Below are positions 13,584 to 50,079 of a DNA stretch of 64,000 nt, piece by piece. The translations under genes were made by a program, and so were the position numbers. The stretch is taken from NCBI RefSeq assembly GCF_000179615.1, contig NZ_AEDD01000004.1, positions 62,001 through 126,000 on the forward strand, in the 5' to 3' direction. This DNA comes from Paenibacillus curdlanolyticus YK9. GTDB taxonomy: Bacteria; Bacillota; Bacilli; Paenibacillales; Paenibacillaceae. The stretch's first letter is position 1; each line of letters starts with the position of its first letter. The notes beneath the pieces were generated by a model, which was not told where the DNA came from, did not search any database, and was given only the letters and a program-made list of their open reading frames with translations.

Positions 13584-13594
13584 GCAATCCCTCC

Positions 13595-14341
13595 TCACAT
13601 CGGCGGGCGGCTCTGGACAAGCTCTGCCCTGAAGCCGCTCGCCGTTCTTATATCGTTCTGCAGCGCAGCGAGAACGGCTGCCGTCTGCTCGTAGAGGAAA
13701 AAGTGCCCGCCTGCAAACTCGCGAAACTGGCAGCGGCCGGTCGTCACCTGCGCCCATTCCTCCATGCGTTCGCGCGTCAGCTCGTCCTTCTCGCCCGTCC
13801 AGACGAAAATATCGGAGGTCAGCGGCGGAACAATCTCGCTGTACGCATACGTTTCGATCAACCGGTAATCCGCCCGAATAATCGGCAAAAACATGGCCAA
13901 TAGCTCAGCATGCTCGAATACCTCGGCAGGCGTTAAATCGAGTGCCCGGATTGCGTCTGCGAACTCCTGATCAGGCAGCAGATGCAACTGCTTGCGTTTC
14001 GTTGTCACATGGGGAGGCGTCCGGCCGGAGAAGAAGCTCGCGACCGGTTCGCGGAATCCCATGCTCTTAATATGCCTGCACATCTCATAGACGAGCAGCG
14101 TCCCCATGCTGTGGCCAAGCAGCGCATAAGGGCTGTCGCCTGCTTCCTTGACCAGCGCCGGATACAAATCCTGCACAGCGGCTTGGGCGCTCTCATAAAA
14201 TGGCTGCCCTGTTTTGAGCCCGCGCCCGCGGAGCTCCAGCGGGCACAGCTCGATCCCGGGCGCAAGCAGCTTGCGCCACCTGCTGAACCCGGTCACGGAG
14301 CCTCCGGCATGCGAAAAACAAAATAATTTGATAACGGTCAT
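13595..14341 (-). CDS. Type II thioesterase (SrfAD/GrsT-like)
   Basis: 248 residues, alpha/beta hydrolase that clears misloaded carrier proteins in NRPS/PKS systems. Catalytic residues are Ser78 in GHSMG, Asp186 in TGEKDELT and His213 in GGHFFL; the N-terminal CFSHAGGS is also typical. Its ATG overlaps the stop of the preceding synthetase (ATGA). As no integrated thioesterase was found in the three synthetases, a role in product release cannot be excluded, though editing is the usual one. Confidence 0.93.
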   Translation of the reverse strand: MTVIKLFCFSHAGGSVTGFSRWRKLLAPGIELCPLELRGRGLKTGQPFYESAQAAVQDLYPALVKEAGDSPYALLGHSMGTLLVYEMCRHIKSMGFREPVASFFSGRTPPHVTTKRKQLHLLPDQEFADAIRALDLTPAEVFEHAELLAMFLPIIRADYRLIETYAYSEIVPPLTSDIFVWTGEKDELTRERMEEWAQVTTGRCQFREFAGGHFFLYEQTAAVLAALQNDIRTASGFRAELVQSRPPM

Positions 14342-23300: not shown

Positions 23301-24378
23301 CGTAAGAGACTTCCTCGTCGATCGCGATGATGCAGCCGCCGAACCCCGACAGATCCGCCGCAGAGCGCTGCGTCAGCAGCAGCTTGATGCCTGAATCGTC
23401 CATCATGTAGGCGATGCGCTCTTGCGGATAAGTCGGATCGATCGGGACGTAAGCGCCGCCCGCCTTGAGGATGGCGAGCATGCCTACCACCGTATGGATG
23501 GAGCGATCCGCGATTAGGCCGACCAATTGGTCGGCGCACACGCCTTGCTCGCGCAGCGTGCGGGCAAGCTGATTCGCCCGGCTGTTCAATTCCGCATAAG
23601 TGACGCGGCTGCCTTCGCAAACGAGGGCTACCCTCTCCGGCACGGCTGCAGCCTGCTCCTCAAACAGCTGGTGAATCGACTTCTCCCGCGGATAAGCGGC
23701 ATCCGTATCGTTAAAGCCGACCGACAGCAGCCTTCTTTCTTCTGCATCCAGCAGGTCGATTTCGCTTAATGCCATGCCAGGAGAAGACATCACAGCCGTA
23801 TAGAACCGAATAAGCTGCCCTGCGATGGCCTCCACCGTCGACGCATTGTACAGCCCCGCATCATAGTGGAGCGTTATCGTCAGCGCCTCTTCCGCCTTGA
23901 CGAAGGAGAAGCGAAGGTCAGCGTCCCACGCCTCTTCTCCCGCCTGATCCTGTAAGCCTTCGAGCAGGACAGCGACGCCATAGCGGCTTCGCTCCTGCCC
24001 GTGAACGCCATCCTGCTCATGGGCGGCCATAACCGCCCGTTTGATTACAGAAAGCCAGTCCTTGTACGCCATACTGCTGCTTTGTTCAATCGCAATGCCC
24101 AATAAGCCGTTCGCTTCGGACGAATCGGAAACATCGGATGCATCGCTGCGGAACATCGGCGCTCCGATAACGACTTCGCCTTGGCGGGTATATTGGCTCA
24201 ATAAATACGCAACGCCGGATACGAAGATGAGAAACAGGCCATGGCCGGAGCCTTTGCTCGTCGAGAGAAGCTGGGCAGTCAATTCGCCGGGAAGCGCGCG
24301 GCTCCAATTCGCCATCGTCCGCTCGCTGCGGTCGGAACGTGCCATATCGTAAGGAAAGGAGTAAAGTTCCGTCACCAT
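14338..24378 (-). CDS. Three-module NRPS ending in a BtrH/C39-like domain
   Basis: 3346 residues. Order: half condensation domain without HHxxxDG (~1-215); A1 (~225-720), pocket residues DFWNIGMVHK, the known Thr code; PCP1 (GGDS, Ser ~771); C (HHAVLDG, ~983); A2 (~1300-1800), DLYDVMLVWK, Cys-like but altered; PCP2 (GGHS, ~1855); C (HHIVTDG, ~2035); A3 (~2350-2850), DILQLGMVWK, Gly-type; PCP3 (GGHS, ~2899); then ~400 residues (2940-3346) with no GxSxG thioesterase motif. This end instead shows Cys2973 (YYYPCFNAV), His3109 (FDHSLLVID) and Asp3125 (VYDASFG), resembling the BtrH N-terminal acyltransferase fold plus a helical tail. No epimerisation domain was seen. GGAGG precedes the start, 12 bases after the previous gene. 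Pocket residues were aligned by eye to GrsA. Confidence 0.93.
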   Translation of the reverse strand: MVTELYSFPYDMARSDRSERTMANWSRALPGELTAQLLSTSKGSGHGLFLIFVSGVAYLLSQYTRQGEVVIGAPMFRSDASDVSDSSEANGLLGIAIEQSSSMAYKDWLSVIKRAVMAAHEQDGVHGQERSRYGVAVLLEGLQDQAGEEAWDADLRFSFVKAEEALTITLHYDAGLYNASTVEAIAGQLIRFYTAVMSSPGMALSEIDLLDAEERRLLSVGFNDTDAAYPREKSIHQLFEEQAAAVPERVALVCEGSRVTYAELNSRANQLARTLREQGVCADQLVGLIADRSIHTVVGMLAILKAGGAYVPIDPTYPQERIAYMMDDSGIKLLLTQRSAADLSGFGGCIIAIDEEVSYAADGSNLASVSGPDHLAYVIYTSGSTGRPKGVLIEHRNVVRLLFNSRNLFDFGPDDTWTLFHSFCFDFSVWEMYGALLYGGKLVIVPALMARSPQQFRQLLLEEQVTILNQTPTSFYQIIQEDEAAEGRLSLRQVIFGGEALSPYALRNWRAKYPSTQLINMYGITETTVHVTYKEITEVEIAQAKSNIGTAIPTLRAYVLDEHGRLQPIGVPGELHVSGDGLARGYLNRPELTAEKFIDHPFAPGERMYRSGDLARWLPDGNLEYLGRIDHQVKIRGYRIELGEIEAQLLKAGVRESIVLAREDADGQKELCAYFVADQPYTTSELRELLARELPSYMIPAYFVQLDRMPLTSNGKIDRRSLPEPQVGVSAGTAYREPQSEVEQQLAAIWQDVLKLPQVGLDDSFFAIGGDSIKVIRIISKIQSQLGLAVAVADFYRDPTIAGLAAMLSARSSAASSHASGEQLLAGFTAAIAGETAERPLPADAEDYYPLSSIQQSMVFYSQMMPEEPIYHDQFYFMLDMPNFDWAAFQQAIHTVVLRHPILRTSMELDRYSAPIQIVHGGRLPQLELADLSELEEASQEQAIRTVMEQDLSDRFRFGGGELLWRLRLFRLGARDFCVVLSFHHAVLDGWSVASFNKELTEAYSALLKGQAVQSPALKASYKDYVAIQMARQSSEETKRFWKDYLGGYTRNKLPFNLAGKRVAEASGIAIYRKQADAETSAALTKLSQQHAYSTRDICFAAYVFVMHTLTTEQDLVTGIVTHDRPPIEDGDAMLGCFLNTLPFRLEIDRAWTGLELLEQVKRSMHAAFAHELFLVDIAQEIGDGRGDRENPIFDALFNFTDFHVMDGLEDNAFIRGSGRQLQLESSEMTNTLFDLEVSCAMSQMHIQIKYAKAFFDESEIQTAFELYVRVLRQLAADPAMSLRDLPLLSESEQKRIVYDFNDTETDYARTATLHQLLEEQTAKTPRHIALKQDGSTLTYAELNQRANQIARLLVDRGVQSGDRVGLIAERGFDMIAGMYAILKAGAAYVPIDPAYPDSRKAYIASNAEIAALLADRDYGLGLDNTIVLADGAHAAYEDANLSLDKDANDLAYIIYTSGSTGVPKGVMIEHHAAVNLVQWVNERFEVGERDTLLFITSMCFDLSVYDIFGTLACGGQIVIARQEQVQNHEELMRLMREERITFWDSVPSTMNHLVNMIRQEEPDFLQHELRLVFMSGDWIPVPLPDAIRDFFPNAEVIALGGATEATVWSNYYPVQPGSVSKTQTSIPYGQPMNNNYFYILNDDKRPVPFGVAGELYIGGVGVARGYMNDEAKTATAFVPNPFRNGAQERMYRTGDLGRMLPSGQMEFLGRKDHQVKIRGFRVELGEIESQLVQHPDVREVVVLAKQDDQGNAYLCAYIAAGEPLTAQQLREHLSGRLPGYMIPSAFVQLERLPLTSNGKIDRKALPEPEHGADMGTAYTAPRTATERQLAKIWTDVLGVDKVGVHDHFFEIGGHSLRATSLATKVHKAMGVSFPLRHVFEYPTLEQMAEAIDGMQQLEYVSIPIAAEQAYYPTSFAQKRLFILNQMVGDDTGYNVPAAIMVEGTVDRLRLEATFRELAARHAALRTSFEMIDGEPVQRIHPKASFSLAYSKLNENDIERKVRAFVRPFDLSQAPLYRMELCELSPDRHLLLFDMHHIVTDGTSMGILLREFSQLYAGEALPPLRVQYNDYAVWQRQRMADGRYREQERYWIDTFAGELPVLELPTDYVRPAVRSFEGSTVTFAVERELTEQVRQVAAQTGGTLFMLLLAAYTAMLHHYTGQEDIVVGTPIAGRVAAELEPMFGMFINTLALRNYPSQDKPFLAYAEEVKANALKAFEHQEYPFEELVAKLHATRDFSRNPLFDTMLILQNAEAGALAIDSLMFQPYELQQTVAKFDVTLSVVEQDQMLHATLEYSTSLFKEETVRRMADHFVQLLRSIVERPEAPIGSLAIMTPSETEQVQHTFNRTERGYSSKHTITSLFEEQAARTPDAIALAYADTRLTYRELNARANEAAAIMRGKGVGADSIVGLLVERSPALVIGMLAILKAGGAYLPIDPEYPQDRIRYMLEDSRAGHLYADGNRELPFFDGVRIDSAVPANDGQAELAGGLAYAHTPNVEPCHTSDSLAYVIYTSGSTGLPKGVMIEHRNVVNLIIGMSERIDLSAGRKLLSLTTVSFDIFVLESLVPLTQGCTVILGSDEDQRDPVRISRLVNEHGVHIVQMTPSRMRLWMNDPDHKHGLKQLTDVLVGGEPLPPKLRDDLSKATHAKIFNMYGPTETTVWSSMAEVPAEGAITIGSPIANTQIYIVNSGGRMQPIGAVGELCIAGDGLARGYLNREALTAEKFVDNPFEPGKRMYRTGDMARWLPDGTLACLGRADHQVKIRGYRIELGEIENQVRKLAPVQEIAVIARDDEAGGKLLCAYYTAEEELGASQLRAALSQQLPSYMIPSHFVQMDALPLTPNGKLDRQSLPVPAGIPSSSAAYEAPKDELESMLAAIWQEVLSVARVGMHDNFFELGGHSLHAIQVIARTNALQLGLSVKDIWDYPTIRLLRERQTAVNPAAASSAVVTTAAPKRTYNAQFAVNYQYPYYYPCFNAVLYEKIHYQYGFPLARSVLPAVDGLVLPTLEFESAGTGAEAEVEASQCRKLPFVPAMGLAELLAEAGITFEFTSYPSLEEGVAAIDRCLAKGEVAAIGGISYYLNYTSDYRLPDEECRSRIAASNTSRMAFDHSLLVIDRTERGYIVYDASFGFMGEIPRQDLYDSFTGYWSMACLDDRPEWANYAFRVFHSDRPLEGRTADPDWALRIFIEQVNGYLGLESLPYAWEGRAYTRFTGISAIGEWARVLRVGPSSMPDEAFLSLMQAVSIDWKYNFVFLRDLLDDLGQQFSGFQGASLPVQEIVETLSDAYETCQHLLNSQYGTFSLELAQKVELIRIRMAAMLPEWREQAFALLSLSGNEHNAVTGVDVR

Positions 24379-24390
24379 AATTCCTCCATT

Positions 24391-27300
24391 CTAAAAGTTG
24401 AATTCCACGTCCTCGAATACGGTCCGTTTCGGCCTCGGGCGAGCGCCTTGCAGCTCCACATGCCGCGCCTCGGCGGTTGGATCAGCTGCAATTGCACGCA
24501 GGATGCGGACGTAATCGTCCAGCAGCACAGCCATCGTCTCGGGGCGGAATAGCTTGGAGGCATAATCCAGCGCTAGCATGAATCCGTCCTCCGATGCTGA
24601 CGCCTCCAGCGTGAGGTCAAACTTCGCCGTCCTCGGACGGAACGATAGAAGCTCCGCTCGCAGCCCTTCGGCATGCAGCTCGGCTGTCTCTTGATTGTGC
24701 ATGACGAATGCGGCGTCAAATAACGGGTTCCGGCTCACGTCACGCGGAAGGTTAAGCTGCGCGGTCAGTTCCTCCAGCGGGTAGTCTTGATGCTCGAACG
24801 CCGCAATTGTATCGGCCTTGACCGCTTGAAGGAATTGCTCGTAAGGCTGGTCGCCTGCAGGGCGGCAGCGAATGACGAGCATCTGAACGAACATGCCGAT
24901 CAACGGCTGCAAATCAGGGTCGGCGCGTCCTGCGGACGGCGTGCCGATAATAAGATCGTCCTGATTGCTGTATCGTTGAAGCAGCAGCGCGTATGCCGCA
25001 AGCAGCGCCATGTACAGCGTCGCGCCATTGCTCGCTGCGACTGCCTGCAGCTGATCTTGCAGCTCCGGCTCCAGCAGCAGGCTCACGCGGCCGCCTTCGA
25101 AGCTTTGAACGCTTGGACGCGGGAAATCCGTCGGCAGCGCCAAGACTGGAAGCGGACCGCTCAGCGTGCGCTGCCAATATTCGGCGTGGCGACCCATCGT
25201 TCCGTTCTCTACCTGCCGCTGCTGCCATACCGCGTAATCCTTGAATTGAATCCGCAGCTCTGGCAGCTCTTCACCGTTGTATAGCTGGATAAAATCGCGA
25301 ATGAGCACAGCCATTGACACGCCGTCCGACACGATATGATGCATATCGAAGAACAGCGCATAAGCGTCCGCTTCGGTCAGTTTGATAAGCGTTGCCCGCA
25401 ATAGCGGCGCCTGTCCAAGATCAAACGGTTGAATCAGCGAAGCCGCCAATGCTTCCAGCCCCTCTTCCGCTGCCTCGCGGTAACCGAATTGGAACGGCGC
25501 CTCCTGCTGGATGAACTGCATGAATTGGCCGTCCTCGACCGCGAATGAAGTGCGGAGCGACTCGTGGCGGGCAATCAGCGCGCGCAGCGCCTGCTCCGCC
25601 CGTTCACGGTCCAGCGCGCCTTCCAGCCGGAACAGCCCCGGCAGGTTGTAGGCGGTGCTGTCCAACGCCAATTGCTGAATAACGTACAGCCGCAATTGCC
25701 CGGAGGACAACGGATAACAAAGCTGCGCTTCCGCTGGCGTTATGGCCAGCTCCGGCTCCGCTTGCGGCGAAGCTTGCGCAATCGCCTCGGCTTGCTGCCT
25801 GATCGTAGACAGGCGGAACAAGTCCGCGAGCGGCATATTGACGCCGTACGCTTGGAGGATGCGCGAGCGCAAACCGATCGCATGCAGCGAATGGCCGCCG
25901 ATTTCGAAGAACGATTCGGTCATGCCGATCGGGCTTGCCCCGAGCAGCTCGGACCAAATAACGGCGAGCTCCGCTTCCAGCGGGTTGGCCGGCGGTTCGC
26001 CTGCCATATCCTGCGCTTGCAGCTCAGGCGCAGGCAGCGCTTTGAGATCGATCTTGCCGTTCGCATTCAGCGGCAGCGCCTCCAGCTGCTGGAAGCGCGC
26101 CGGGATCATATAGCCCGGCAGCTCTTGCGCCAGCGCTTCCCTGATCGCCGTCACGGTTATCGGACCTGCTGCCACGAAGTAACCGCAAAGGTAAAACTGC
26201 CCTGCCTCGTCGGCGCGGGCGGTTACGACCGCCTCTTGAATGCGCGGCACCTTGCGCAAATGCGCCTCGACCTCGCCGATCTCGATGCGATAGCCGCGGA
26301 TTTTGACCTGATGATCGATCCGTCCGAGGTAGGCAATGTTTCCGTCCGGCTGCCAACGAACCCAGTCGCCTGTGCGGTACATAAGGCCGCCCGGCACATG
26401 CGGGTTGGCGACGAATTTATCCGCCGTCAAATCCAAGCGGTCCCAATACCCGCGCGCCAGCCCCTCGCCCGAAATGCATAGCTCGCCCGGCACGCCAATT
26501 GGCTGCAGCTGCAGCTCGCCGTTCACGATCCATGCCTGGACGTTCGGAAGCGGCCTGCCGATCGGTACATTTGCCCGCGACGGCTCATTCGCCCCCGTCG
26601 TATATCGGGTCGCATAAATCGTCGCTTCCGTTGGGCCGTACAAGTTTTCCAGCTGCGCAGGCAGCGCCGTGCGCTCGTATTGCTCCACCAGCCTGCGAGT
26701 CAACGCTTCGCCGGCTGCGAATATATAAGTCAGCGACTGCAAATGCGCCAGTTGGTCGACCGTCACGCTGTTCAATAGCGCCTGCAGCATCGATGGAACG
26801 AAGTTGATGTGCGTGATGCCATGGCGGCTGATCGCTTGAACGAGCGCATCCGGGTCCTTCTCATCGCCCTGCGGCAAAATGATCAGCTGCCCATTGCCAA
26901 CAAACCAGCCGAACAGCTCGGCCACCGATACGTCAAACGCATACGTCGTTTTGAGCAAATAACGATCATCCGCCTGCAGCGGATACAGCCGCTCTAACTG
27001 GCTGAGCATATGCACGATCGAACGCTGCTCGACCATAACGCCTTTGGGCTTGCCCGTCGATCCCGAGGTAAAGATGACATAAGCCAGATTGGCTGGCGAC
27101 GATATCGGCTCAAGGTTGCGCCCGTCCGTTTCGTACGCTTGCGGATCATCCAGATCGATGGCTTTCCCCGCCGCGAAGCCGCCTCCCGGCAATCGTTCGA
27201 GGAGCCGCCCTTGAAGCAGAAGCAGCTTGGCCCCAGATTCTTGCAAAATCGAAGCGATCCGATCCGCCGGATGCGCCGGGTCAATCGGCACGTACGCGCC

Positions 27301-30300
27301 GCCAGCCTTCATGATGGCAAGAATGCCGATGACCATCTCGAAGGAGCGCTCCGTCATGATGCCGATCAATTGATCCGGTGCAACGCCCTCGTTTCTTAGC
27401 GTACGCGCCAACTGGTTCGCTCTTGTATTCAGCTCGCGATACGTCATCCAGCGGCCTTCATAGAAGACTGCTTCCTGTTCCGGCGTTTGCTTCGCGCGCT
27501 GCTCGAACATGCCGTGAATCGTCTGATCGCCTGCTTCGTATGCCGCGTAGGTCGCGTTGAAGCCGAACATGATTTGCGACCGTTCCTTCGCGTCCAGCAT
27601 TTCCACCTGCCCGATCGCCCGATCCGGCGCTTGGACTGCTGCTTTCAGCAATTGAACGAAATGACGGGAAAGCTGCGCGATCGTGCCTGGCTCGAACAGC
27701 TCGGTCGCATATTCCATATGGGCGCGGAGGCCCTCGCCGGACTCGGACAGCTCCAACGTCAGATCGAATCGGCTTTGCTTCGTATCGTACTTGTAAGGCC
27801 GGAATTGCAGCCCCTCTACCTGCTGGGTCGCCCAATCCATGTTCTGGTACACGAACATCGTGTCAAACAGCGGATTGCGGCTCAAATCACGCGGCACGTT
27901 CAGCCGCTCTACCAGCATTTCGAACGGATACGCCTGATGCTCCATCGCGCTCATCGCATTGTCCTTCACTTCGCGCAGAAACTGCCGGAACGGCTTCTTG
28001 CCTTCCGGCTGGCTGCGCAGCGCCAGCGTCTGGACGAACATGCCGACCATCGTTTGCAAATCCGAATGCTCCCTGCCAGCGACCGGCGTACCGACCACGA
28101 CATCCTCTTGCCCGGCGTATTTGGCAAGCAGCATTTGGAACACGGCCAAATAGATCATGAACGGTGTAGCGCCAGCCTCGGACGCCAGCCGCTTGACGCC
28201 TGCTTGCAGCTCAGTCGGCAGCTCAAATGCATACCGCCGTCCCGCGAAGCCGCGGACAGACGGGCGAGGCGCATCAAGCGGCAGATTCAAGACGGGCACG
28301 CCGTCCGCGAATACATTGAGCCAATAGTCGGCTAAATGATCAAGCTTGTGCTGCTGAAGCAGCTCGCTTTGCCAGAAGGCAAAATCGCGATACTGCACGC
28401 GCAGCTCCGGCAGCGCTTCGCCGCTATACAGCTGCATGAACTCCTTCATGAGCAGGCTGATCGACACGCCGTCTGCTGCAATATGATGCATATCGAATAA
28501 GAGCAAGTGCTTGGACGCTTCCATTCGGATCGCCCCGGCACGGAATAATGGCGATTGCTTCAGGTCAAATGGACGGATGAAGGATGCGATCGCTTCCTCT
28601 AGGTCGCCTTCGCCCAGCTCGATATAGTCAATAGTTGGCTCTGCCTTCGAGCCATCAGCGATGCTGCCGACAAAGCCTTCCTCCTCCACCCAGCGATATG
28701 CGGTAGATAGAATCGCATGTCTGCGTACAAGCGCTTGGCATGCTGCACGGAACTTCCCTACATCCAGATCACCCTCAACAACGAACAGGATTGGCTGGTT
28801 GTAGGCCAAGCTCGGCACATCCATTTGCTCCAGCACAAGCAATCGTTTTTGAGCGGAAGTGACCGGATAAGCTCCGCTTCCTGCCGCAGGCTCAATAGCC
28901 TGATGCCGCATGCGGTCGGCGCCGTCGATCCGTCTGGACAGCTCGCGAACCGTCGGCGCGGCGAACAAATCGCGCAGCGAAACCGTCACGCTGAACTGCT
29001 GATGGATGCGTGAAGCAAGCGAAACCGCCTGCAGCGAATTGCCGCCAATGGCGAAGAAATGGTCCAGCGCGCCGATCGGCCGCCTGCCGAGAATATCCTC
29101 CACGATTGCGGCGAGCGCCGTTTCCGTTGCCCCAACCGGTTGGTCGAAGGGGCCGGCATGCGACGCAGCAGCCGTTGTCGGCTTCGGCTTATGAAGCGCG
29201 AGCAATTGGTCGCCCCTGTGATGCTGCAGCGGAAGCAGCTGATGGCGATGCTTCAGCTCCGCCGCGTCAGCGCCGGGAACCTCCCAATGCCGCAGCTCGG
29301 CTGTTGCGAGCGCTAATGCCAGTGGCTGCTTCGCAGCTTCATCGCGATTGCGCTCATCGGCATTGCTCGACAATCCAGCGGCAACCTGCTGCTCGGAGGC
29401 GAATGATTCTGCTTCGTCCTCCCACTGCGCGACAAACTCGGCTTCATCCGGAATGCTCGTTAACGGCAGCACATAACGCTCTGGGCTTTGACGGGAGCTT
29501 GGGCTAGAGCGTTGGCCGGAGCCTTGTCCTGCCCCATCGGCCGCATTTGCTCCATCAGCTGTCTCGCCCGAAACTGTCCAGCCTGCTTCCTGAAGGAACA
29601 GACGGAACGGCTCGTTCTTGTCCGTCGCAACATAATTGGCTGCCAGAGCGACAGCCCCTTGGCCTGCTGCAAATCGCTTCAGCTCGCATAAAATCGCATG
29701 TTCGACGCGCCGGCCAAGGACGCGGCAGCTCAGCAGGAACGTATCCAACGCGAGAAGATCATCCTCCACAGCGCCGATGACCAAGCCGACAAAGCCGTAA
29801 TCGCCGAAGCGATCCGCAACCTCGATCCCCCAGCACGCTATTGCCGAATCGGCTGCGAGCCTGCGCAGCTCATCCTCGGTACGGCGAATCGTGCTGAGAT
29901 TAAACTGGTTCGTTCGCTGCGTCAGCTGCGAAGCCCGAGCGATCTGGTCCGGCCCGATTAGGCGCATCTTCATCCGCAGGTTCAGCCCTGCGAGGAAAGC
30001 GTCCATTGCCGCTGGCGCCGCGCTTCCGCTTTCATCAGAGGCCGCGCGCGCTTCCGGCTGCGCCGCCTGCTGGGCACTGCGCCGCTGCGACTCCGCGCGG
30101 TAATAGTCGGACCTTCTGCGGTCCTCCTCCGTCACCGTCAGCTTGTCAAACGCCCAAACATGCTGGAGATAATGCGGAATAAGCGCCGCGTCCTCCGGCA
30201 CTTGAAGCGAAAGGACGGAAGGACAGCCCGCCATCATCTCGCTGATCTCCTTCGGATTGTCGTCGACGAAAATAAAGCTGTCCAAGCCAAGGTTCAACTG

Positions 30301-33300
30301 CTCAGCGAGCAGGCGAAGATTGTCCGCCTTAGGCTCCCAATTGAGCTGCGCCGCTACGAAATGCTCCCGCTTCAGCAGCATGCCCGGGTTGCGGTCGAAC
30401 ACTTCCCACACGTCGGCTTCGTTGTTTTTGCTGCTTAACACAAGCAGCATGCCGTCGCTCAAGCGGTCCAGCATAAATTGCTGCAGCGCGGCGTAAGGTC
30501 CTTCAACGGAAACGCCGAGCGGGCCGTCTTCTCCGCAGATGCCTTTCCATAACGTGTTGTCGCAATCCAGCGCAATGACCTTGAACGGGCTCGCTGCATG
30601 CAGACCGATAACCGTACGGGCAACCGTCGTCCCGATCGCGGCATAATACGCTTCCGTAAACGGCATATGCCCTTCATGGTCCATGACCGGATCGTAGATA
30701 ACTGGCACTTGATATAGGGCAGCAAGCGATTCATCGAAAGCTGCCATACGAACGTTGTCCATCGCAGCAAGCGTTGCGCGCCATTGTTCGTTCAATTGCT
30801 CCAAATGAGCGATGACTTCCGCGCTGTATGGCAGCCCCGGCGTTACCGGGAATGTGCCGACCACATACGTGCCGCGCGCGCTTCGATTGCGCATCGCCTG
30901 CTCCAGCTCGCCATAAATGCGATCCAGCTTCGCTTTTAATACAGCCGCAGGTGAATCATCCTCGCGAATCCAGTCCTCGAACCGCGCAAGCAGCACATTG
31001 ATTCCGTCATTGGTCGAAATCATGCTCGACGGGTCCAGCAGCTGCTGGAACACTTGATGGTACGGGGCAAAAGCAACGGTTACGTCCCGTTGGAACTGCT
31101 GGCACCACCATGCAATCGGCTCGGCAATTGGCTCAGCCGTAAACGTCGCGCTAACCGCGACCGTTAGCTCGGCGGTTGACGCCGCGCCTAATCCGTCATT
31201 CACCGCCGCGTCCTGCGCGCTGTCCATTCTTGGCAAGCCCATCAGGCTTACCGACGGCTGCTCTGCTACTGCACCTGCCATCGCTACGAAGGTTTCCAGC
31301 CATTGCCGAACCGTCTCTTCTTTGAACAACGCCGTATCGTATTGCATGACAAGCGTCAGACTGTCCGAATCGGACACGCCGTTCCACACATCCAGCTTGA
31401 AGTCTAACGGCGCAGCAGCATGTTCCAGCGGATATTCCTCGAACCGCAAGCCCGCCTCTTCCATTCGCAGCTGGTCGGTCGGGTTCATGGCAAACTCGTT
31501 ATGGTACACGAACATCGTGTCGTAGAGCGGATTGCGGGAGCGATCCGCCGTAGCCTGCAGATCCGATACCATCCAGTCGAACGGGTAATCGTGGGCATAA
31601 GCCTCGAGAACGTTCCGATGCACCTCATTGGCAAAATCGGCGAAGGCTTGCTCCGCTGGCACGTTCAGCCGCACCGGCAGGAAGTTAATAAACATGCCGA
31701 TGACCTGCTCCAGCTCGGGATGATTGCGGCCTGCAACGAGCGTACCGACAACCAGATCCTCCTGATTCGAAAACTGGCGCAGCATCCATCCATAAACCGC
31801 GAATAGCAAGGAGTTCATCGTCCAGCCGCTCCGCTGAGCGAGCTTCTCCAGCTTCCGCTTCAATTCGGCAGGAAGCTGCGTTTTCAACGACCGACCTTGC
31901 AGCGACTTCTGTCCCCCGCGTTCAAAATCAGCCGGCATGCTCAGCAGCGGAAGGCTGCCGGACAACCGGCTGCGCCAGTATTGCTGCTCCCGCATAAAGC
32001 CGCCGCGATCGAGCGTATCCTGCTGCCATACGACAAAGTCGACGTATTGGAGCGGCAGCTCCGCAAGCGTTCCGCCTTTATAAAGCTCGCAAAACTCCTT
32101 GATCAAAATGCTCGTCGATACGCCATCGGACGCGATATGATGCAGATCGATCAGAATCAAATGGCGGCTGCTCTGGTTATCCTGCTCACCCTGATCGCCT
32201 GATTGGCTTACAAGCCGCACCAGCCCGACGCGAAGCATCGGAGGCGCCGCTAGGTCAAACGGGCGAATAAAGTCGTCCAGCACCGACTGAACGCCTTCCT
32301 CCGAGCACCGATATTGCTGCACATGGAATTCCGTTTCGGCTGCGATGCGCTGAATGACTTGACCATCCTCGAAAACGAAGGAGGCGCGCAGCGATGCGTG
32401 CCGCTGGAGCAATTGGCGGAAAACCGCTTCTAGCCGGCTTGCATCAAGCTCTCCATGCGCCATGATTCCGAACGGCGTATTGTTGCCCGTGCCGATTGAA
32501 GCGAACTGCTCCTGAATATAAACGCGATATTGGGACGGCGTCAGCGGATAATGCAGACGTTCCGCGGCTTTCGCCAGCGGCTCCCTGCGGTATCCTGATT
32601 GCGCAGCCTCTGGCTCCAGCTCAACTAGCCCTTCCACATATGCGGCGAGCTCGCTAATCGTTGCATGCTTCAGCAGATCAGCAACTTCGACGCGAATCGC
32701 CAGCAGGCTGCTGGCCCGGTTCACGATCTTGAGCGCGAGGATGGAATCCCCGCCTGCTTCGTAATAATTGTCGCGTAAGTCCACGCTGCGAAGGCCAAGC
32801 GTCTCGCCCCAAGCTTGGGCAATGCCGAGCTCAGCCTTCGTGTAGCTGCCATCCGGCTTCCCTGTCAAGGTAACGGCATGCGATGTGCCAACCGCCGCAG
32901 CGGCAGCCATCGCTCCGCGATTTGACGCATCGTTTGCGGACGCCAATGAAGCCGGCGCTTCAAGCCAGCAGCGGCTCGGTTCAAACGGATACGTTGGCAG
33001 CGGCAGCCGCGCATGTCTTCGCCCTGCGTACTGGCGTCCCCAGTCGATGTCGGCTCCCGCTGCATAGCTGGCGGCTAATGCGGCTGTGCCGCCGCTCTCG
33101 CCGCCAGTTATTTCCCCGTAATAAATACCGCGCGACGGCTCGCCTATTAAACCCTGATCGACGATCGATGCCAGCTGCCCGGCTAGCTCCTCCGCCGATT
33201 CAAATACGAATGCGAGCCGATGCTCATAATGATCCCGGCCCGTATTGGCCGAGTAGCACAGATCCGCTAGCCGACTCTGCCCCAGCTCTGGCATGCACTC

Positions 33301-34782
33301 GCTGTATTGCAGCACCAACCGTTGCAGTGCCGATTCGCTCTTGGCGGATAAGGCAAGCAGGTTGGCTGTCGAATCGCCAGCCTCCCATCGCTCGTCGCTC
33401 TCCCGTTCCATGGCTTCAGGCGCTTCCTCCAGCACGACATGGGCGTTCGTGCCGCTCATGCCGAAGGCGCTGACGCCGCAGCGGCGAGGGGCGTCGCCCC
33501 GCTCCCAGTCCATCAGCCGATCCGCCACATAAACGGGCGATTCGATGAAATGAATAGCTCTGTTCGGCCTTGCAAAATGCGCCAGCGGCGGAATTTGGCG
33601 ATGCTTCATCGCCAAAACCGCCTTCAGCAGGCCAGCCATGCCTGCTGCGTGATCCAAATGTCCGATGTTCGCTTTCACAGAGCCGACGGCGACGAACTGC
33701 TTCCGGTCGGTGAATCGCCGGAAAGCGCGGGTCAAGCCGTCGATCTCAATCGGATCGCCGAGCTTCGTGCCCGTTCCGTGCGCTTCAATGTAGCCGATCG
33801 TTTCCGGATCGATGCCCGCATGCTGCCATGCGCGGGCAATGACCTCTTCCTGAGACGCCACATTCGGCGCGGTCAGGCCGACGGAGCTGCCGTCCTGATT
33901 GACTGCGCTGCCTTTAATGACCGCATGGATGTGGTCGCCATCCTGCTGCGCTTTATGCAGCGGCTTCAGCACGAACGCAATCGCGCCTTCGCCCGCTCCC
34001 GTGCCGTCGGATGAATCGTCGAACGTATGGGCGCGCCAGTCGGAGGCTTCGATCCCGATCTTGACCTCATTGCTGAGCGGAAGCAGGTTGACCTTCACGC
34101 TGCCAGCCAGCGCCGTCTCGCATTCTCCGTTTCGGATCGCTTGGCAGGCGAGATGCACCGCCACCAAGGAAGAGGAGCATGCCGTATCCACGTTAAGACT
34201 CGGCCCTTTCAGATCGAGCAAATAGGACAGCCTGCCGGCAATGATCGAGCTCAGATTGCCTGGTATCGCGAGCGAAAGCGCATCCGGCTCGGATTCCGAT
34301 ACCATTCGTTTATAATCGTAAAGCGTATCCGCGTTATATCCGACGTAGACGCCCGTCTTGCTGCCAGCCAACCTGCTGCGCCCGTAGCCGGCGTCCTCGA
34401 ACGCCTTCCATGCGGTCTCAAGAAAAAGCCGCTGGTTCGGATTCATCAGGCTCGCTTCCTTCGGCGACAAGCGGAAGAACGCATAATCGAACTGATCAAT
34501 CGCGTCCAGATAAGCGCCGTCAAAATAATCAGGCGGCCGCCCGTCTGACACTCTGCCTTTGGCGTAAGCCTCGACATCCTTGCGCCTTGACTCCGGGAAA
34601 GGGGAGATAAAATCGGCGCCCTTGCTCACTAGCGTCCAAAACTCCTCTACGCTGCCGACAAGCGGCAGCTTCGCCGATATCCCGATGATTGCAATATCCT
34701 TGGCCGACAATTCCTCCATCGTTTCCGCTTCGGCCTGTTCAGACTCCGCTTCCTCCCAATCCAGCAGATCAAAGTTCAGCAT
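24391..34782 (-). CDS. Hybrid PKS/NRPS: KS-ACP-C-FkbH-PCP-C-A-PCP-C
   Basis: 3463 residues. KS (~28-450) has intact Cys (DTACSSS, ~201), EAHGTGT and NIGHLDHAAG. No AT follows, only a post-AT-linker remnant (LPTYPFEPSRCW), so it needs the free transacylase. ACP1 has GGDS (~679); there is no KR or DH. C1 HHIASDG (~880). An FkbH/HAD domain follows (~1210-1735): ALDCDNTLWKG (~1405), SSKNNE, FVDDNPKE (~1503). PCP2 GGNS (~1915); C2 HHIAADG (~2098); A (~2410-2900), pocket DVANIALIYK, no confident substrate; PCP3 GGHS (~2964); C3 HHIVSDG (~3147). The protein ends with a complete C domain, and the next begins with half a C domain. FkbH proteins make glyceryl-carrier protein from 1,3-bisphosphoglycerate, so glycerate is probably incorporated. 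Start overlaps the membrane gene by 14 bases. Confidence 0.94.
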   Translation of the reverse strand: MLNFDLLDWEEAESEQAEAETMEELSAKDIAIIGISAKLPLVGSVEEFWTLVSKGADFISPFPESRRKDVEAYAKGRVSDGRPPDYFDGAYLDAIDQFDYAFFRLSPKEASLMNPNQRLFLETAWKAFEDAGYGRSRLAGSKTGVYVGYNADTLYDYKRMVSESEPDALSLAIPGNLSSIIAGRLSYLLDLKGPSLNVDTACSSSLVAVHLACQAIRNGECETALAGSVKVNLLPLSNEVKIGIEASDWRAHTFDDSSDGTGAGEGAIAFVLKPLHKAQQDGDHIHAVIKGSAVNQDGSSVGLTAPNVASQEEVIARAWQHAGIDPETIGYIEAHGTGTKLGDPIEIDGLTRAFRRFTDRKQFVAVGSVKANIGHLDHAAGMAGLLKAVLAMKHRQIPPLAHFARPNRAIHFIESPVYVADRLMDWERGDAPRRCGVSAFGMSGTNAHVVLEEAPEAMERESDERWEAGDSTANLLALSAKSESALQRLVLQYSECMPELGQSRLADLCYSANTGRDHYEHRLAFVFESAEELAGQLASIVDQGLIGEPSRGIYYGEITGGESGGTAALAASYAAGADIDWGRQYAGRRHARLPLPTYPFEPSRCWLEAPASLASANDASNRGAMAAAAAVGTSHAVTLTGKPDGSYTKAELGIAQAWGETLGLRSVDLRDNYYEAGGDSILALKIVNRASSLLAIRVEVADLLKHATISELAAYVEGLVELEPEAAQSGYRREPLAKAAERLHYPLTPSQYRVYIQEQFASIGTGNNTPFGIMAHGELDASRLEAVFRQLLQRHASLRASFVFEDGQVIQRIAAETEFHVQQYRCSEEGVQSVLDDFIRPFDLAAPPMLRVGLVRLVSQSGDQGEQDNQSSRHLILIDLHHIASDGVSTSILIKEFCELYKGGTLAELPLQYVDFVVWQQDTLDRGGFMREQQYWRSRLSGSLPLLSMPADFERGGQKSLQGRSLKTQLPAELKRKLEKLAQRSGWTMNSLLFAVYGWMLRQFSNQEDLVVGTLVAGRNHPELEQVIGMFINFLPVRLNVPAEQAFADFANEVHRNVLEAYAHDYPFDWMVSDLQATADRSRNPLYDTMFVYHNEFAMNPTDQLRMEEAGLRFEEYPLEHAAAPLDFKLDVWNGVSDSDSLTLVMQYDTALFKEETVRQWLETFVAMAGAVAEQPSVSLMGLPRMDSAQDAAVNDGLGAASTAELTVAVSATFTAEPIAEPIAWWCQQFQRDVTVAFAPYHQVFQQLLDPSSMISTNDGINVLLARFEDWIREDDSPAAVLKAKLDRIYGELEQAMRNRSARGTYVVGTFPVTPGLPYSAEVIAHLEQLNEQWRATLAAMDNVRMAAFDESLAALYQVPVIYDPVMDHEGHMPFTEAYYAAIGTTVARTVIGLHAASPFKVIALDCDNTLWKGICGEDGPLGVSVEGPYAALQQFMLDRLSDGMLLVLSSKNNEADVWEVFDRNPGMLLKREHFVAAQLNWEPKADNLRLLAEQLNLGLDSFIFVDDNPKEISEMMAGCPSVLSLQVPEDAALIPHYLQHVWAFDKLTVTEEDRRRSDYYRAESQRRSAQQAAQPEARAASDESGSAAPAAMDAFLAGLNLRMKMRLIGPDQIARASQLTQRTNQFNLSTIRRTEDELRRLAADSAIACWGIEVADRFGDYGFVGLVIGAVEDDLLALDTFLLSCRVLGRRVEHAILCELKRFAAGQGAVALAANYVATDKNEPFRLFLQEAGWTVSGETADGANAADGAGQGSGQRSSPSSRQSPERYVLPLTSIPDEAEFVAQWEDEAESFASEQQVAAGLSSNADERNRDEAAKQPLALALATAELRHWEVPGADAAELKHRHQLLPLQHHRGDQLLALHKPKPTTAAASHAGPFDQPVGATETALAAIVEDILGRRPIGALDHFFAIGGNSLQAVSLASRIHQQFSVTVSLRDLFAAPTVRELSRRIDGADRMRHQAIEPAAGSGAYPVTSAQKRLLVLEQMDVPSLAYNQPILFVVEGDLDVGKFRAACQALVRRHAILSTAYRWVEEEGFVGSIADGSKAEPTIDYIELGEGDLEEAIASFIRPFDLKQSPLFRAGAIRMEASKHLLLFDMHHIAADGVSISLLMKEFMQLYSGEALPELRVQYRDFAFWQSELLQQHKLDHLADYWLNVFADGVPVLNLPLDAPRPSVRGFAGRRYAFELPTELQAGVKRLASEAGATPFMIYLAVFQMLLAKYAGQEDVVVGTPVAGREHSDLQTMVGMFVQTLALRSQPEGKKPFRQFLREVKDNAMSAMEHQAYPFEMLVERLNVPRDLSRNPLFDTMFVYQNMDWATQQVEGLQFRPYKYDTKQSRFDLTLELSESGEGLRAHMEYATELFEPGTIAQLSRHFVQLLKAAVQAPDRAIGQVEMLDAKERSQIMFGFNATYAAYEAGDQTIHGMFEQRAKQTPEQEAVFYEGRWMTYRELNTRANQLARTLRNEGVAPDQLIGIMTERSFEMVIGILAIMKAGGAYVPIDPAHPADRIASILQESGAKLLLLQGRLLERLPGGGFAAGKAIDLDDPQAYETDGRNLEPISSPANLAYVIFTSGSTGKPKGVMVEQRSIVHMLSQLERLYPLQADDRYLLKTTYAFDVSVAELFGWFVGNGQLIILPQGDEKDPDALVQAISRHGITHINFVPSMLQALLNSVTVDQLAHLQSLTYIFAAGEALTRRLVEQYERTALPAQLENLYGPTEATIYATRYTTGANEPSRANVPIGRPLPNVQAWIVNGELQLQPIGVPGELCISGEGLARGYWDRLDLTADKFVANPHVPGGLMYRTGDWVRWQPDGNIAYLGRIDHQVKIRGYRIEIGEVEAHLRKVPRIQEAVVTARADEAGQFYLCGYFVAAGPITVTAIREALAQELPGYMIPARFQQLEALPLNANGKIDLKALPAPELQAQDMAGEPPANPLEAELAVIWSELLGASPIGMTESFFEIGGHSLHAIGLRSRILQAYGVNMPLADLFRLSTIRQQAEAIAQASPQAEPELAITPAEAQLCYPLSSGQLRLYVIQQLALDSTAYNLPGLFRLEGALDRERAEQALRALIARHESLRTSFAVEDGQFMQFIQQEAPFQFGYREAAEEGLEALAASLIQPFDLGQAPLLRATLIKLTEADAYALFFDMHHIVSDGVSMAVLIRDFIQLYNGEELPELRIQFKDYAVWQQRQVENGTMGRHAEYWQRTLSGPLPVLALPTDFPRPSVQSFEGGRVSLLLEPELQDQLQAVAASNGATLYMALLAAYALLLQRYSNQDDLIIGTPSAGRADPDLQPLIGMFVQMLVIRCRPAGDQPYEQFLQAVKADTIAAFEHQDYPLEELTAQLNLPRDVSRNPLFDAAFVMHNQETAELHAEGLRAELLSFRPRTAKFDLTLEASASEDGFMLALDYASKLFRPETMAVLLDDYVRILRAIAADPTAEARHVELQGARPRPKRTVFEDVEFNF

Positions 34783-36412
34783 GGAGCTCGCCCCCTACGC
34801 GATCGCTTTGACCGGTTGGGAGGGATTGCTCGTTCTCGCGGCCAGTCTCGCGGTTTTTCCACAAGTACACCATGAGGCCGATGACGACCACCGAGCTAAT
34901 GCCCAGCGCCCACACAACTCCGGGGCCATATGCGACATTCAGCTTCCGAATGCCGTAGTACGCCGCGAACACGAAAAACTCGTTAATGATCGGCGCCCAG
35001 ATCGACTTGTACCATTCGAACATGAAGCTGAAAATAAGCGCGCCAAGCGTCGCATAGATCGTCAGGGCGATGTCCCAGTTGAAGAACAAGCCGCCGTAAA
35101 CGATGCCTGTCCCGATGACAGATACCCACACTGGCATAGCGGTGCGGAATACGTTGTAGATCATCGCGCGGAAATAAATTTCTTTATACATGGAGTGAAC
35201 GATCAGGAACGCGAAATAAACAAGGAAAAGTGCATCGGTCAAATAAACGGTTAACTGGTCGAATTGCGGGTAGTTCTTCTCGAAGTAAGGGATTTTGAAA
35301 AACATTTGGACCCATACGCCCATCGCAATGCCCAATATGGAGATCAATACGGCATTTTTCAGGGAGATGCGCGAGAAATTGCTCACTTGAATGAGATCCT
35401 TCTTATTGACCCACTTCATGATGTAGTAATAGATGACGAAGGCCAAGATATCGTAAGGAATGAAGCCGATAACATTGTTCCGTCCAAGCCACGGCGAGAT
35501 GGCGTCGATGCCCATCACATATTGATTCCATACGATGAAGATGAACGGATAATAGAATGCGGAATAAACAAACGTCCATAGGAGCAGGTTGCCGATCATC
35601 CGGAGATCGACCGATTTGTTGTCGCCTTTCCACACTGCACGAACCAGCACGATCATGAAGAACAGGGAAACGCCGGCGATTAGCATCAAAATATGGTCCG
35701 GACAGTCCGAGAGGAAGTCCAGCACGCCATATTGCTTCGCCACGAAGATGACCGTGTTCATGAAGCCTGCCGCAAGCAGCGTCGACCAGATCGACTTCAG
35801 GCGGTAGTAGAGAATGCCGTACATGATGGCAAGGAAGAACGAAATGAACTGAACGCTCAGATTAGGCTGGCAGTACGCATAGAAGACAGCTTGTACGACC
35901 AGCGCGAAGATGAATGGCATTTTGCGGCGCATAATGTTGAACAGAATGCCGCGGAACAGTACCTCTTCGAACAAGGGCCCGATAATCGACAAGCCGATAA
36001 TCGTAACGATGAAGGACTGGGAGTTCATAAACATGTTGATGTAGTTGTCGAAGTCGGGCGTCGCCTCTTCAATGAACGACAACTTAATGAAACAAATAAA
36101 GAATATGCCGGTGAAAATGCCGACGAGGGTTGTAATTGTCGCGTCGAGCTTGCTTATTTTGGAGAAGTTGCTCATCTGAACGATGCTTTCGTAACGTTCC
36201 TTCACGATCCGCTTCTTCACTTGGAAGATGATTGCTATAAGCGCTGACGTAATCGCAAACATCACGGTAATCCAGATCGGCAGGTTCTTGCCTACAAACT
36301 CGCCGTAAGCGCCCGAATTCGGCACAATGATATCGTTATGAACAATGGAAACCCCAAGGAAAGTACCCAGCAGCAGTACCAGTTCCCCTATCATCGTCAA
36401 ATATTTTTTCAT
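34769..36412 (-). CDS. Duplicated CPBP-fold membrane protein in the synthetase operon
   Basis: 547 residues, with about a dozen or more hydrophobic helices in two similar halves. The first half carries the CPBP (CAAX protease / bacteriocin processing) motif EEVLFRG (Glu149, Glu150, Arg154); the second has a decayed copy, KEIYFRA (~410). The histidines expected in motifs 2 and 3 of active CPBP proteases are not seen (FYAYCQ and AGFMN in the first half), so activity is doubtful. ATG at 36412 is chosen, with AGAGGA 9 bases upstream; an in-frame TTG at 36430 is less likely. Lying between the transacylase and the hybrid synthetase, it is probably pathway-specific (immunity, membrane scaffold or processing); the role is unknown. 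Confidence 0.8.
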   Translation of the reverse strand: MKKYLTMIGELVLLLGTFLGVSIVHNDIIVPNSGAYGEFVGKNLPIWITVMFAITSALIAIIFQVKKRIVKERYESIVQMSNFSKISKLDATITTLVGIFTGIFFICFIKLSFIEEATPDFDNYINMFMNSQSFIVTIIGLSIIGPLFEEVLFRGILFNIMRRKMPFIFALVVQAVFYAYCQPNLSVQFISFFLAIMYGILYYRLKSIWSTLLAAGFMNTVIFVAKQYGVLDFLSDCPDHILMLIAGVSLFFMIVLVRAVWKGDNKSVDLRMIGNLLLWTFVYSAFYYPFIFIVWNQYVMGIDAISPWLGRNNVIGFIPYDILAFVIYYYIMKWVNKKDLIQVSNFSRISLKNAVLISILGIAMGVWVQMFFKIPYFEKNYPQFDQLTVYLTDALFLVYFAFLIVHSMYKEIYFRAMIYNVFRTAMPVWVSVIGTGIVYGGLFFNWDIALTIYATLGALIFSFMFEWYKSIWAPIINEFFVFAAYYGIRKLNVAYGPGVVWALGISSVVVIGLMVYLWKNRETGRENEQSLPTGQSDRVGGELHAEL

Positions 36413-36462
36413 TCTTTTCCATCCTCTCAAATGGCAAATATTGAATCTATTTCATCGCAATG

Positions 36463-37695
36463 CTACACACGTTCCGCAATCGAGGCCGCTTCGTGCAGGA
36501 GTGATTCCCGCTCCGCTTCTACCGTCCCTTTGGCCGTCAAAATCGTACGAAGGCTAGCCAGCGCCGCGTCAACCTCAGCAGCGGAAGGCAGACGGCCGGA
36601 TTGCTCAAGCTCCTGCTGCATGCGGCTAATCACCCGATAGGGCGCGATGACGCCTGCCTCATACGCAGCAGGATCTCCGTTCGTATTGCGCGTCGTTACG
36701 GCGATTGCCAAGCAGCGGTCGATAAAGCTCGGCTGCCGCCTGCCCAGCTCCAGCATGCGGGCATGGCCATCCGCATCATCCCATGCATAGGCCTGCATAT
36801 TGCGGGCCGTTCTGCGCACCAGCTTGGTCAGCACCGTGTTCGGACCTAGCTCAATGGCATGCGACACGCCTTGCCGCTGCATATAACGAATCGATTCCGC
36901 CCAGCGCACGGGAAGAACAAGCTGACGGGCCAAGCCATCAATCATCGCCTGCTTGCCTGCCTCAGTATCCATGGCAAAAGGCTCGGCGGTTACGTTGGAC
37001 ACGACAGGGCAGCTTGGACGCATCAGCTCATACTGCGCCAGCTGCTCCCGCAGCCGCTCCGCCGCAGGCGCCATAAGCGGCGTGTGGAACGGGACGCGAG
37101 ACAGCAGGGGCACGACGCGCCCTCCCATTTGAACCAGCGCTTCCGAAGCCGCGCTGACTGCCTCTTGGTGTCCCGCGATGACCGTCTGGTCCGCTGCATT
37201 GCGGCAAGCAATCCAGACGGCCTGCTCCGCGCCGCCAAGATTAAGCCGCTCGCATTGCGCCGCTACGATCGCAGCGTCCAGCCCATTGACCGCTGCAAGC
37301 GCCCCTCCGCCGACAGGCGTCGCCGCCTCCATTGCCTCGCCCCGAAACCGGACGAGCTCCGCCGCGTCCCGCAGCCGTAGCACGCCTGCGCAGGTTAGCG
37401 CCGACAGCTCGCCCAAGCTATGGCCAGCCATGAAGGCCGGCTTCACGCCGACCTGCTGCACGTACACTCGGTACGCGGCTACGCTGCTAATGAGCATCGC
37501 TTGTTGGGCGTACGCGATGCTCTCTTGCTCTCGGAAGCCTTCCTTGAAGCACATGGCCGCCATCGGGATGCCCAGCGTATCCGCCGCTTCCTCGAAGGTT
37601 TCGCGAACGGCGGCATACCGTTCATGCCACTCGCGCATCATTCCGATGTACTGCGCCCCCGTTCCCGGGAACAATAAAGCCGTTTTTCCAATCAT
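36463..37695 (-). CDS. Trans-acting malonyl transacylase (FenF/FabD-like)
   Basis: 410 residues. FabD fold with FPGTGAQY at the N-terminus, active Ser93 in GHSLGE, Arg in RFRGEAM, and His204 in VPFHTPLM. A ~100-residue C-terminal extension beyond the core gives a length like FenF of the mycosubtilin system. It should load malonyl onto the ACP that follows the AT-less KS. Start ATG 37695 overlaps the stop of the upstream synthetase (ATGA); the open frame extends upstream inside that gene but is not FabD-like. Confidence 0.92.
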   Translation of the reverse strand: MIGKTALLFPGTGAQYIGMMREWHERYAAVRETFEEAADTLGIPMAAMCFKEGFREQESIAYAQQAMLISSVAAYRVYVQQVGVKPAFMAGHSLGELSALTCAGVLRLRDAAELVRFRGEAMEAATPVGGGALAAVNGLDAAIVAAQCERLNLGGAEQAVWIACRNAADQTVIAGHQEAVSAASEALVQMGGRVVPLLSRVPFHTPLMAPAAERLREQLAQYELMRPSCPVVSNVTAEPFAMDTEAGKQAMIDGLARQLVLPVRWAESIRYMQRQGVSHAIELGPNTVLTKLVRRTARNMQAYAWDDADGHARMLELGRRQPSFIDRCLAIAVTTRNTNGDPAAYEAGVIAPYRVISRMQQELEQSGRLPSAAEVDAALASLRTILTAKGTVEAERESLLHEAASIAERV

Positions 37696-46712: not shown

Positions 46713-46743
46713 GAACGTCCTCCCTTGAATAAAAATCATGATT

Positions 46744-48108: not shown

Positions 48109-48130
48109 GCATACTCCCCCTCCCGCTTCC

Positions 48131-48928: not shown

Positions 48929-48930
48929 CG

Positions 48931-49917: not shown

Positions 49918-49940
49918 AGATGCCGCCCCTTTATATAAAC

Positions 49941-49981
49941 AAAAATAACCCCGACTTCTCTGTAACAGAGAGATCGGGGTT
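49941..49981 (-). terminator. Attenuator-like terminator in the ABC exporter leader
   Basis: On the minus strand AACCCCGA pairs with TCGGGGTT, with an inner CTCTGT/ACAGAG stem, followed by ATTTTTG. It lies downstream of the predicted exporter promoter and 24 bases before the ATPase ATG. A second hairpin (AAACCGG/CCGGTTT, 49988-50018) precedes it and contains the tandem repeat GCAAGTAT. Confidence 0.65.
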
Positions 49982-50079
49982 GATAATAAACCGGATACTT
50001 GCATACTTGCCCGGTTTAACATGCATTGCCCTTAGCTTGTCTAGCCAATAAATATCACAGTCAATAAAAAGATAAATAG

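Follow-up and report, generated by a model that had tools for sequence, protein, structure and literature searches.

Glycerate takes the place of an amino acid in the nonribosomal peptide synthetases (NRPSs) of a few described products. Glycerate is the acceptor of an ester-forming condensation (C) domain in vioprolide biosynthesis (PMC8949500, PMC10099666), where VioA, like ComK of the corramycin pathway, has the order FAAL-ACP-C-HAD-T (FAAL, fatty acyl-AMP ligase; ACP, acyl carrier protein; PMC10099666). Module 4 of the cystomanamide synthetase, C-fkbH-PCP (PCP, peptidyl carrier protein), lies mid-chain behind a donor module C-A-PCP-E, with no ketosynthase (KS) described in front of it (PMC9581180). 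In malleicyprol biosynthesis, the C domain of BurF esterifies a carrier-bound hydroxy acid with a fatty acid-polyketide chain. BurF has an FkbH-type N-terminal extension (NEX) and ends in a reductase, through which a butenolide is formed; the authors of that study deem it conceivable that its other FkbH parts were lost (PMC12304814). Here we analyse a 64,000-nucleotide stretch of Paenibacillus curdlanolyticus YK9 (contig NZ_AEDD01000004.1, positions 62,001 to 126,000; hereafter the window), in which the open reading frame (ORF) 24391-34782 encodes a hybrid polyketide synthase-NRPS (PKS-NRPS) with an FkbH unit between a C domain and a PCP, downstream of a KS module (Table 1). The best explanation of this order is probably that glycerate loaded by FkbH would be O-acylated by the C domain with the chain of the KS-ACP module and then joined through an amide, giving a lipodepsipeptide.

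RESULTS

Domain order of the hybrid synthetase

The order C-FkbH-PCP-C without an intervening adenylation (A) domain is present in the hybrid gene and is observed directly. The initial annotation, made from the letters alone, had described this order, and Pfam, the NCBIfam model TIGR01686 and our own hidden Markov models (HMMs) bear it out on the minus strand. The gene contains one ketosynthase, three C domains, one A domain (AMP-binding) and three PCP stretches by Pfam; between the first C domain and the second carrier neither Pfam nor our HMMs, which were trained on the source genome's own domains and may let distant ones escape, find an A domain. The motifs HHIASDG, DCDNTLWKG, FVDDNPKE and GGNS named at the outset are all located in this ORF, and the range then proposed, 29583-31150, covers the FkbH unit (29548-31110) and leaves the PCP and both C domains outside. 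What had been overlooked is the KS-ACP module ahead of the C domain; the donor is not a peptidyl-PCP. No acyltransferase (AT), ketoreductase (KR) or other reducing domain of the KS module is found among the 11 Pfam families matching the ORF. An assembly artefact as the source of the order is unlikely, because the same order is kept in the 84%-identical locus of a congener and in other genomes.

Recurrence in other genomes

FkbH matches were found in 17 of 59 genomes chosen as relatives (16 over the cut-off) and in 18 of 398 drawn across the phylum (14 over the cut-off), the source genome being included in both sets. C-FkbH-PCP occurs in one frame in 12 of the 31 loci of the own and sampled genomes, and in one more it is split over two ORFs. 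A wider genome scan for FkbH matched at least 588 stretches, 536 of them confirmed, and the best 80 loci were kept and annotated. Counts from the first and the wider locus sets are not additive, since the sets overlap (L036/L048 and L037/L050 are apparently identical).

In 35 of the best 80 loci the recognised domain closest to FkbH on its N-terminal side is a C domain, which lies within 67 aa in 30; the five others (L055-L058, L083), with 437-546 aa between C and FkbH, were left out of this strict count. A PCP is the following domain of that frame for 28 of these 35 loci and for 23 of the 30, so that the search for the same order elsewhere, suggested in the initial annotation, yields 23 of the best 80 loci with an adjacent C domain and a PCP following. 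Going by record titles, C-type loci belong to Bacillota, Bacteroidota, Cyanobacteriota, Acidobacteriota, Aminicenantes, Latescibacterota, Chloroflexota and other phyla. The order KS-PCP-C-FkbH-PCP is seen in 13 of the best 80, all from Paenibacillus, Cohnella or Halalkalibacter, and is followed by C-A in ten, all of them Paenibacillus or Cohnella loci. The closest locus of this set is that of Paenibacillus sp. MMS18-CY102, with an FkbH 84% identical to that of the window; locus G002:C25, apparently the same one, has the same three large genes as the window. In three loci a second, stand-alone FkbH stands shortly after the KS-ACP-C-FkbH-PCP gene (L062:13842-14888, L067:13837-14886, L044:12246-13295). 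Among the papers listed in our searches of open-licence literature, we saw no report of KS-ACP-C-FkbH-PCP-C-A or of any such module in Paenibacillus.

Integrity of the FkbH unit

The FkbH unit matches TIGR01686 with 276.4 bits (cut-off 146.65) over aa 1401-1736 of the hybrid protein. Its HAD motifs are DCDNTLWKG (30541-30567), SSKNN and FVDDNPKE (30247-30270). FkbH sequences were aligned in a set of 15 and in a set of 40 units, the latter being the window and 39 of the best 80 loci. In these 40 units D182, D184, T186, S227, N229, K261 and D283 are invariant and D284 and K228 are kept at 90% or more, and in the acyltransferase-like end the motif SCR, with C462, is invariant. Among solved structures the sole sequence match at E up to 1 is BF1531 (3slr), to the phosphatase part (E 2e-25). 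DAD replaces DCD in two of 28 FkbH units of the first locus set (L010, L012) and in five of the best 80 loci (L065, L066, L068, L069, L091), so an essential role for the Cys of the DxD motif is unsupported. A literature search on the OzmB cysteine yielded nothing useful, and a search of viral contigs for an FkbH unit gave no match. From family membership and the directly observed, intact motifs we infer that the window FkbH would load glycerate from 1,3-bisphosphoglycerate on a carrier.

Lineage of the C domains ahead of FkbH

Two trees of C domains were compared. The first (FastTree) used all 160 rows, with 44 labelled as preceding FkbH, including the five non-adjacent domains (L055-L058, L083); the second, made under a mixture model, had 89 rows and held all 44 of these and 20 of the 91 other C domains, 14 of the 20 being random. 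In the FastTree tree, 22 of the 44 fall in one 23-row set with local support of 100, which contains all 19 C domains behind KS-ACP and three behind A-PCP; the one remaining row belongs to the NRPS upstream in the window (ORF 37692-46739) and is its first C domain. The identical set is seen directly in the 89-row tree (SH-aLRT 83), enclosed by a larger one of 28 pre-FkbH domains and the same exception (SH-aLRT 93). C domains after FkbH-PCP are more scattered, with 12 changes over 23 rows versus 4 over the 19 pre-FkbH rows behind KS in the 160-row tree. This lineage fits a C domain and an FkbH unit travelling together and a specialised acceptor site.

Proposed mechanism and rival explanations

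In the pathway that we predict, the FkbH unit would dephosphorylate 1,3-bisphosphoglycerate and put D-glycerate on the PCP directly after it. The preceding C domain would then transfer the chain held by the ACP of the KS module to a hydroxyl of the glyceryl group, most likely the 2-OH, giving an O-ester, a step that we infer from precedent and from the C-domain lineage. That chain would consist of fatty acyl-Ser-Ser and one malonyl-derived C2 unit. The KS module lacks a KR and any other reducing domain, and its probable AT, FabD-like, is a separate protein, so the chain transferred should be beta-ketoacyl; with the ACP of the KS-ACP module as donor, glycerate would be joined to it in a beta-ketoacyl ester. 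The next C domain would form an amide between the carboxyl of glycerate and the amino acid that the following module carries, and the predicted product is a lipodepsipeptide with an internal -CO-CH2-CO-O-CH(CH2OH)-CO-NH- unit. The glycerate acceptor and ester link of the initial annotation thus stand as the best reading, with vioprolide and cystomanamide as precedent; the donor, however, is a polyketide module, and the predicted ester is not one of a peptide carboxyl.

Several points weigh against this reading. The lineage of the pre-FkbH C domains may reflect C and FkbH inherited as a unit and not hydroxyl specificity: the first C domain of the upstream NRPS, assigned to the transfer of fatty acyl to Ser, sits inside it in both trees, the other 22 of the 44 pre-FkbH domains lie outside the 23-row set, and five of the 44 are not adjacent to FkbH. 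A ketoreductase may also act in trans, which makes the beta-keto state uncertain.

A role of FkbH in extender-unit formation is well established (PMC7489565), and the window has a KS in the same polypeptide as FkbH; glyceryl-PCP could accordingly be oxidised to hydroxy- or methoxymalonyl for its own KS module, as in the FK520 type. The initial annotation had itself named methoxymalonyl and hydroxymalonyl units among the known uses of FkbH. We consider this role very improbable and reject it because no dehydrogenases were found near the window FkbH: neither an acyl-CoA nor a 3-hydroxyacyl-CoA dehydrogenase is among the 25 Pfam-scanned ORFs of the window (of 63 of at least 150 aa, many of them overlapping frames), and 3HCDH_N, the FkbK-type family, has no match on the window's contig (C36) and 12 in the genome, the acyl-CoA dehydrogenase family not having been searched genome-wide. 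The genome does hold a stand-alone FkbH with a DLD motif (C37:457303-458226) near a 3HCDH_N match (C37:460009), elsewhere than the window, where the PCP stands between FkbH and a C domain. An intramolecular Dieckmann condensation of glyceryl-PCP with the beta-ketoacyl ester would instead give a tetronate and leave the downstream modules to a second chain. This appears quite improbable, given that the polypeptide goes on with C-A both in the window and in 10 of the 13 KS-type loci among the best 80; for BurF the malleicyprol study excluded a tetronate route (PMC12304814).

That FkbH might be a starter loader, with glycerate opening a separate chain and the preceding C domain unused, draws on the 30 of the best 80 loci in which no domain is recognised in frame before FkbH and a PCP follows. 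One of them, Planktothrix L079, reads FkbH-PCP-C-A, and a glyceric acid loading domain is reported for Planktothrix cyanopeptolin synthetases (PMC2533009). In the window, however, the C domain retains HHIASDG, and the order KS-ACP-C-FkbH is kept in 13 of the best 80 loci, a conservation that a dead C domain would not lead one to expect; a starter role seems unlikely. It is similarly improbable that FkbH is inactive and that another hydroxy acid reaches its carrier in trans. Such loading, through a NEX remnant, is assumed for BurF, which retains the NEX part alone and, in the view of its authors, receives the hydroxy acid from another protein (PMC12304814). The DAD variants among relatives noted above would agree with such a loss, whereas in the window the HAD and acyltransferase motifs are intact. 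O-acylation of FkbH-loaded glycerate by the KS-ACP chain is the probable explanation.

Neighbouring genes

The upstream NRPS begins with a ligase whose top NCBIfam match is fatty acyl-AMP ligase (378.7 bits, below the cut-off of 600) and whose solved relatives include fatty acyl-adenylate ligases. Both of its A domains have the code DVWHFSL(V/I)DK, which we take to be serine. The three A domains of the downstream NRPS have, in order, the codes DFWNIGMVHK (presumably threonine), DLYDFSLVWK and DILQLGMVWK (presumably glycine-like). All codes were derived from anchor motifs by way of the GrsA positions, and the residue assignments are presumptive. The stand-alone FabD-like acyltransferase is a probable trans AT for the KS module; its ORF overlaps the neighbouring gene and its true start may be internal.

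Table 1. Features of the window and of related loci in the same genome
Feature	Position	Strand	Basis
ABC transporter ATPase and permease, two overlapping ORFs	11810-13757	-	Domain matches
Thioesterase, separate protein	13595-14341	-	Pfam Thioesterase, 136.7 bits
Downstream NRPS: half C-A-PCP-C-A-PCP-C-A-PCP-C-terminal domain	14338-24378	-	Own HMMs, code reading
Hybrid PKS-NRPS, 3463 aa: KS-ACP-C-FkbH-PCP-C-A-PCP-C	24391-34782	-	Pfam, NCBIfam, own HMMs
C-terminal C domain, HHIVSDG	24466-25713	-	Own HMMs, motif
PCP	25780-25977	-	Own HMMs
A domain, code DVANFALIYK	26035-27507	-	Pfam, own HMMs, code reading
C after FkbH-PCP, HHIAADG; proposed to take glyceryl-PCP as donor for amide	27607-28866	-	Own HMMs, motif
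PCP after FkbH, IGGNS (29035-29049); proposed glyceryl carrier	28924-29124	-	Pfam, own HMMs, motif
FkbH unit: N-terminal extension (NEX-like by position), HAD phosphatase part, acyltransferase-like part	29548-31110	-	TIGR01686, alignments
C ahead of FkbH, HHIASDG (32122-32142); proposed ester-forming	31234-32547	-	Own HMMs, motif, tree lineage
ACP of KS module, EAGGDS	32632-32823	-	Own HMMs, motif
KS, active-site ACSSS (34168-34182)	33148-34707	-	Pfam ketoacyl-synt, 223.6 bits; motif
Tandem CPBP (Rce1-like) membrane protein, directly before KS gene	34769-36430	-	Domain match; same in relatives
FabD-like acyltransferase, stand-alone	36463-37824	-	TIGR00128, 261.1 bits (cut-off 260.9); same place in relatives
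Upstream NRPS: FAAL-like ligase-ACP-C-A-PCP-C-A-PCP-half C	37692-46739	-	Own HMMs, code reading, NCBIfam
ABC transporter: ATPase and two ABC2_membrane_6 proteins, upstream of NRPS genes	47317-50022	-	Domain matches
Sister gene KS-ACP-C-FkbH-PCP-Red (NAD_binding_4 reductase)	L005:5971-12963	+	Own HMMs, Pfam
Third fused copy: FAAL-like ligase-PCP-C-FkbH-PCP, vioprolide/corramycin architecture	L006:9419-14977	-	Domain HMMs, ligase match

A full-length tandem CPBP gene directly before the KS gene is found in 13 distinct cases (window, L040, L042, L048-L052, L063, L066, L068, L069, L091), and L046 has a half-length CPBP gene there. The protein is 96% identical in the closest congener, versus 84% for FkbH. 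A genome with no FkbH match (G054) also has similar CPBP pairs, so CPBP is not exclusive to FkbH clusters; a function in immunity or maturation is a guess, and a literature search combining CPBP, nonribosomal peptide and Paenibacillus found no paper.

The KS gene is flanked by two half C domains on the minus strand, at the end of the upstream NRPS (37695-38348) and at the start of the downstream one (23700-24378). The upstream match is weak, and in neither is an HHxxxDG visible; half C-like stretches occur at the same NRPS junctions in several relatives, and they are possible docking parts. The C-terminal domain of the downstream NRPS (14341-15558, minus strand) has a weak BtrH_N match (E 0.036) and may serve chain release or transfer. 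It was found in the window and in G002 only, many of the fetched loci stopping short of that point.

Other FkbH copies in the same genome

The source genome has three fused FkbH copies, all C-FkbH-PCP, and one stand-alone FkbH with DLD instead of DCD. This suggests a division of labour in which the stand-alone enzyme, near the 3HCDH_N match, belongs to an extender-unit pathway and the fused copies work as C-FkbH-PCP. Before the sister gene at L005 lie a FAAL-like ligase-ACP-half C gene, whose half C scores 26.0 bits versus Pfam's 30.6, and an AT gene; ApbA-like and PapA/condensation-like genes follow it. A terminal reductase directly after the carrier is not in the window gene, which has C-A-PCP-C there, and is present at L005 and, with the same end, at L054 (Halalkalibacter). 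The order at L005 is similar to that described for BurF, but FkbH is intact in L005. By analogy, a glyceraldehyde ester of a beta-keto acid is predicted to form at L005 and would close to a glycerate-derived butenolide.

DISCUSSION

A-domain-free glycerate modules are a known kind, because C-FkbH-PCP has been published for cystomanamide, vioprolide and corramycin; the KS-ACP donor is a variant unreported among the papers listed in the literature searches. The amino-acid-free NRPS module put forward in the initial annotation is partly supported, its domain order being confirmed, and is not new. What was described for few products, among them the vioprolides and cystomanamides of myxobacteria, becomes a recurrent module with a clear prediction: a three-carbon acid derived from sugar would be built into a lipopeptide through a beta-keto ester. 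For the question of hydroxyl versus amine acceptance, the C domains ahead of FkbH offer a defined lineage, and in the window and L005, which share a genome, one can compare what becomes of the same type of intermediate when a reductase is present and when it is absent.

On comparison of the loci we tentatively suggest, at somewhat less than even chances, that Paenibacillaceae and relatives have in KS-ACP-C-FkbH-PCP a portable cassette for beta-ketoacyl glycerate esters, leading to depsipeptides where C-A follows and to self-loading butenolides where a reductase does (L005, L054). If true, L005 and L054 would be intact-FkbH counterparts of BurF, making A-factor-like small molecules by a thiotemplate route.

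The known systems were compared with the window by their published descriptions. With VioA and ComK the window shares C-FkbH-PCP, with glycerate as the acceptor, predicted in the case of the window; the vioprolide glycerate is acylated by a fatty acyl starter, whereas that of the window would be acylated by a KS-ACP-derived chain. The cystomanamide synthetase resembles it in that a glycerate module without an A domain lies mid-chain, and differs in its donor, for which no KS is described. Stand-alone FkbH glyceryl transferase-phosphatases of extender-unit and tetronate pathways belong to the same family and have the same motifs (PMC7489565), but they act on a free ACP, while the window FkbH is fused between C and PCP. 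The order KS-ACP-C-FkbH-PCP is present in the window, where a part judged by position only may correspond to the NEX of BurF. In BurF, whose order C-NEX-T-Red after a polyketide module is our reading of the text, a C domain esterifies a fatty acid-polyketide chain with a bound hydroxy acid; unlike the window synthetase, which continues to C-A-PCP-C, it has neither the phosphatase nor the acyltransferase part of FkbH, its loading is assumed to occur in trans, and a reductase stands at its end.

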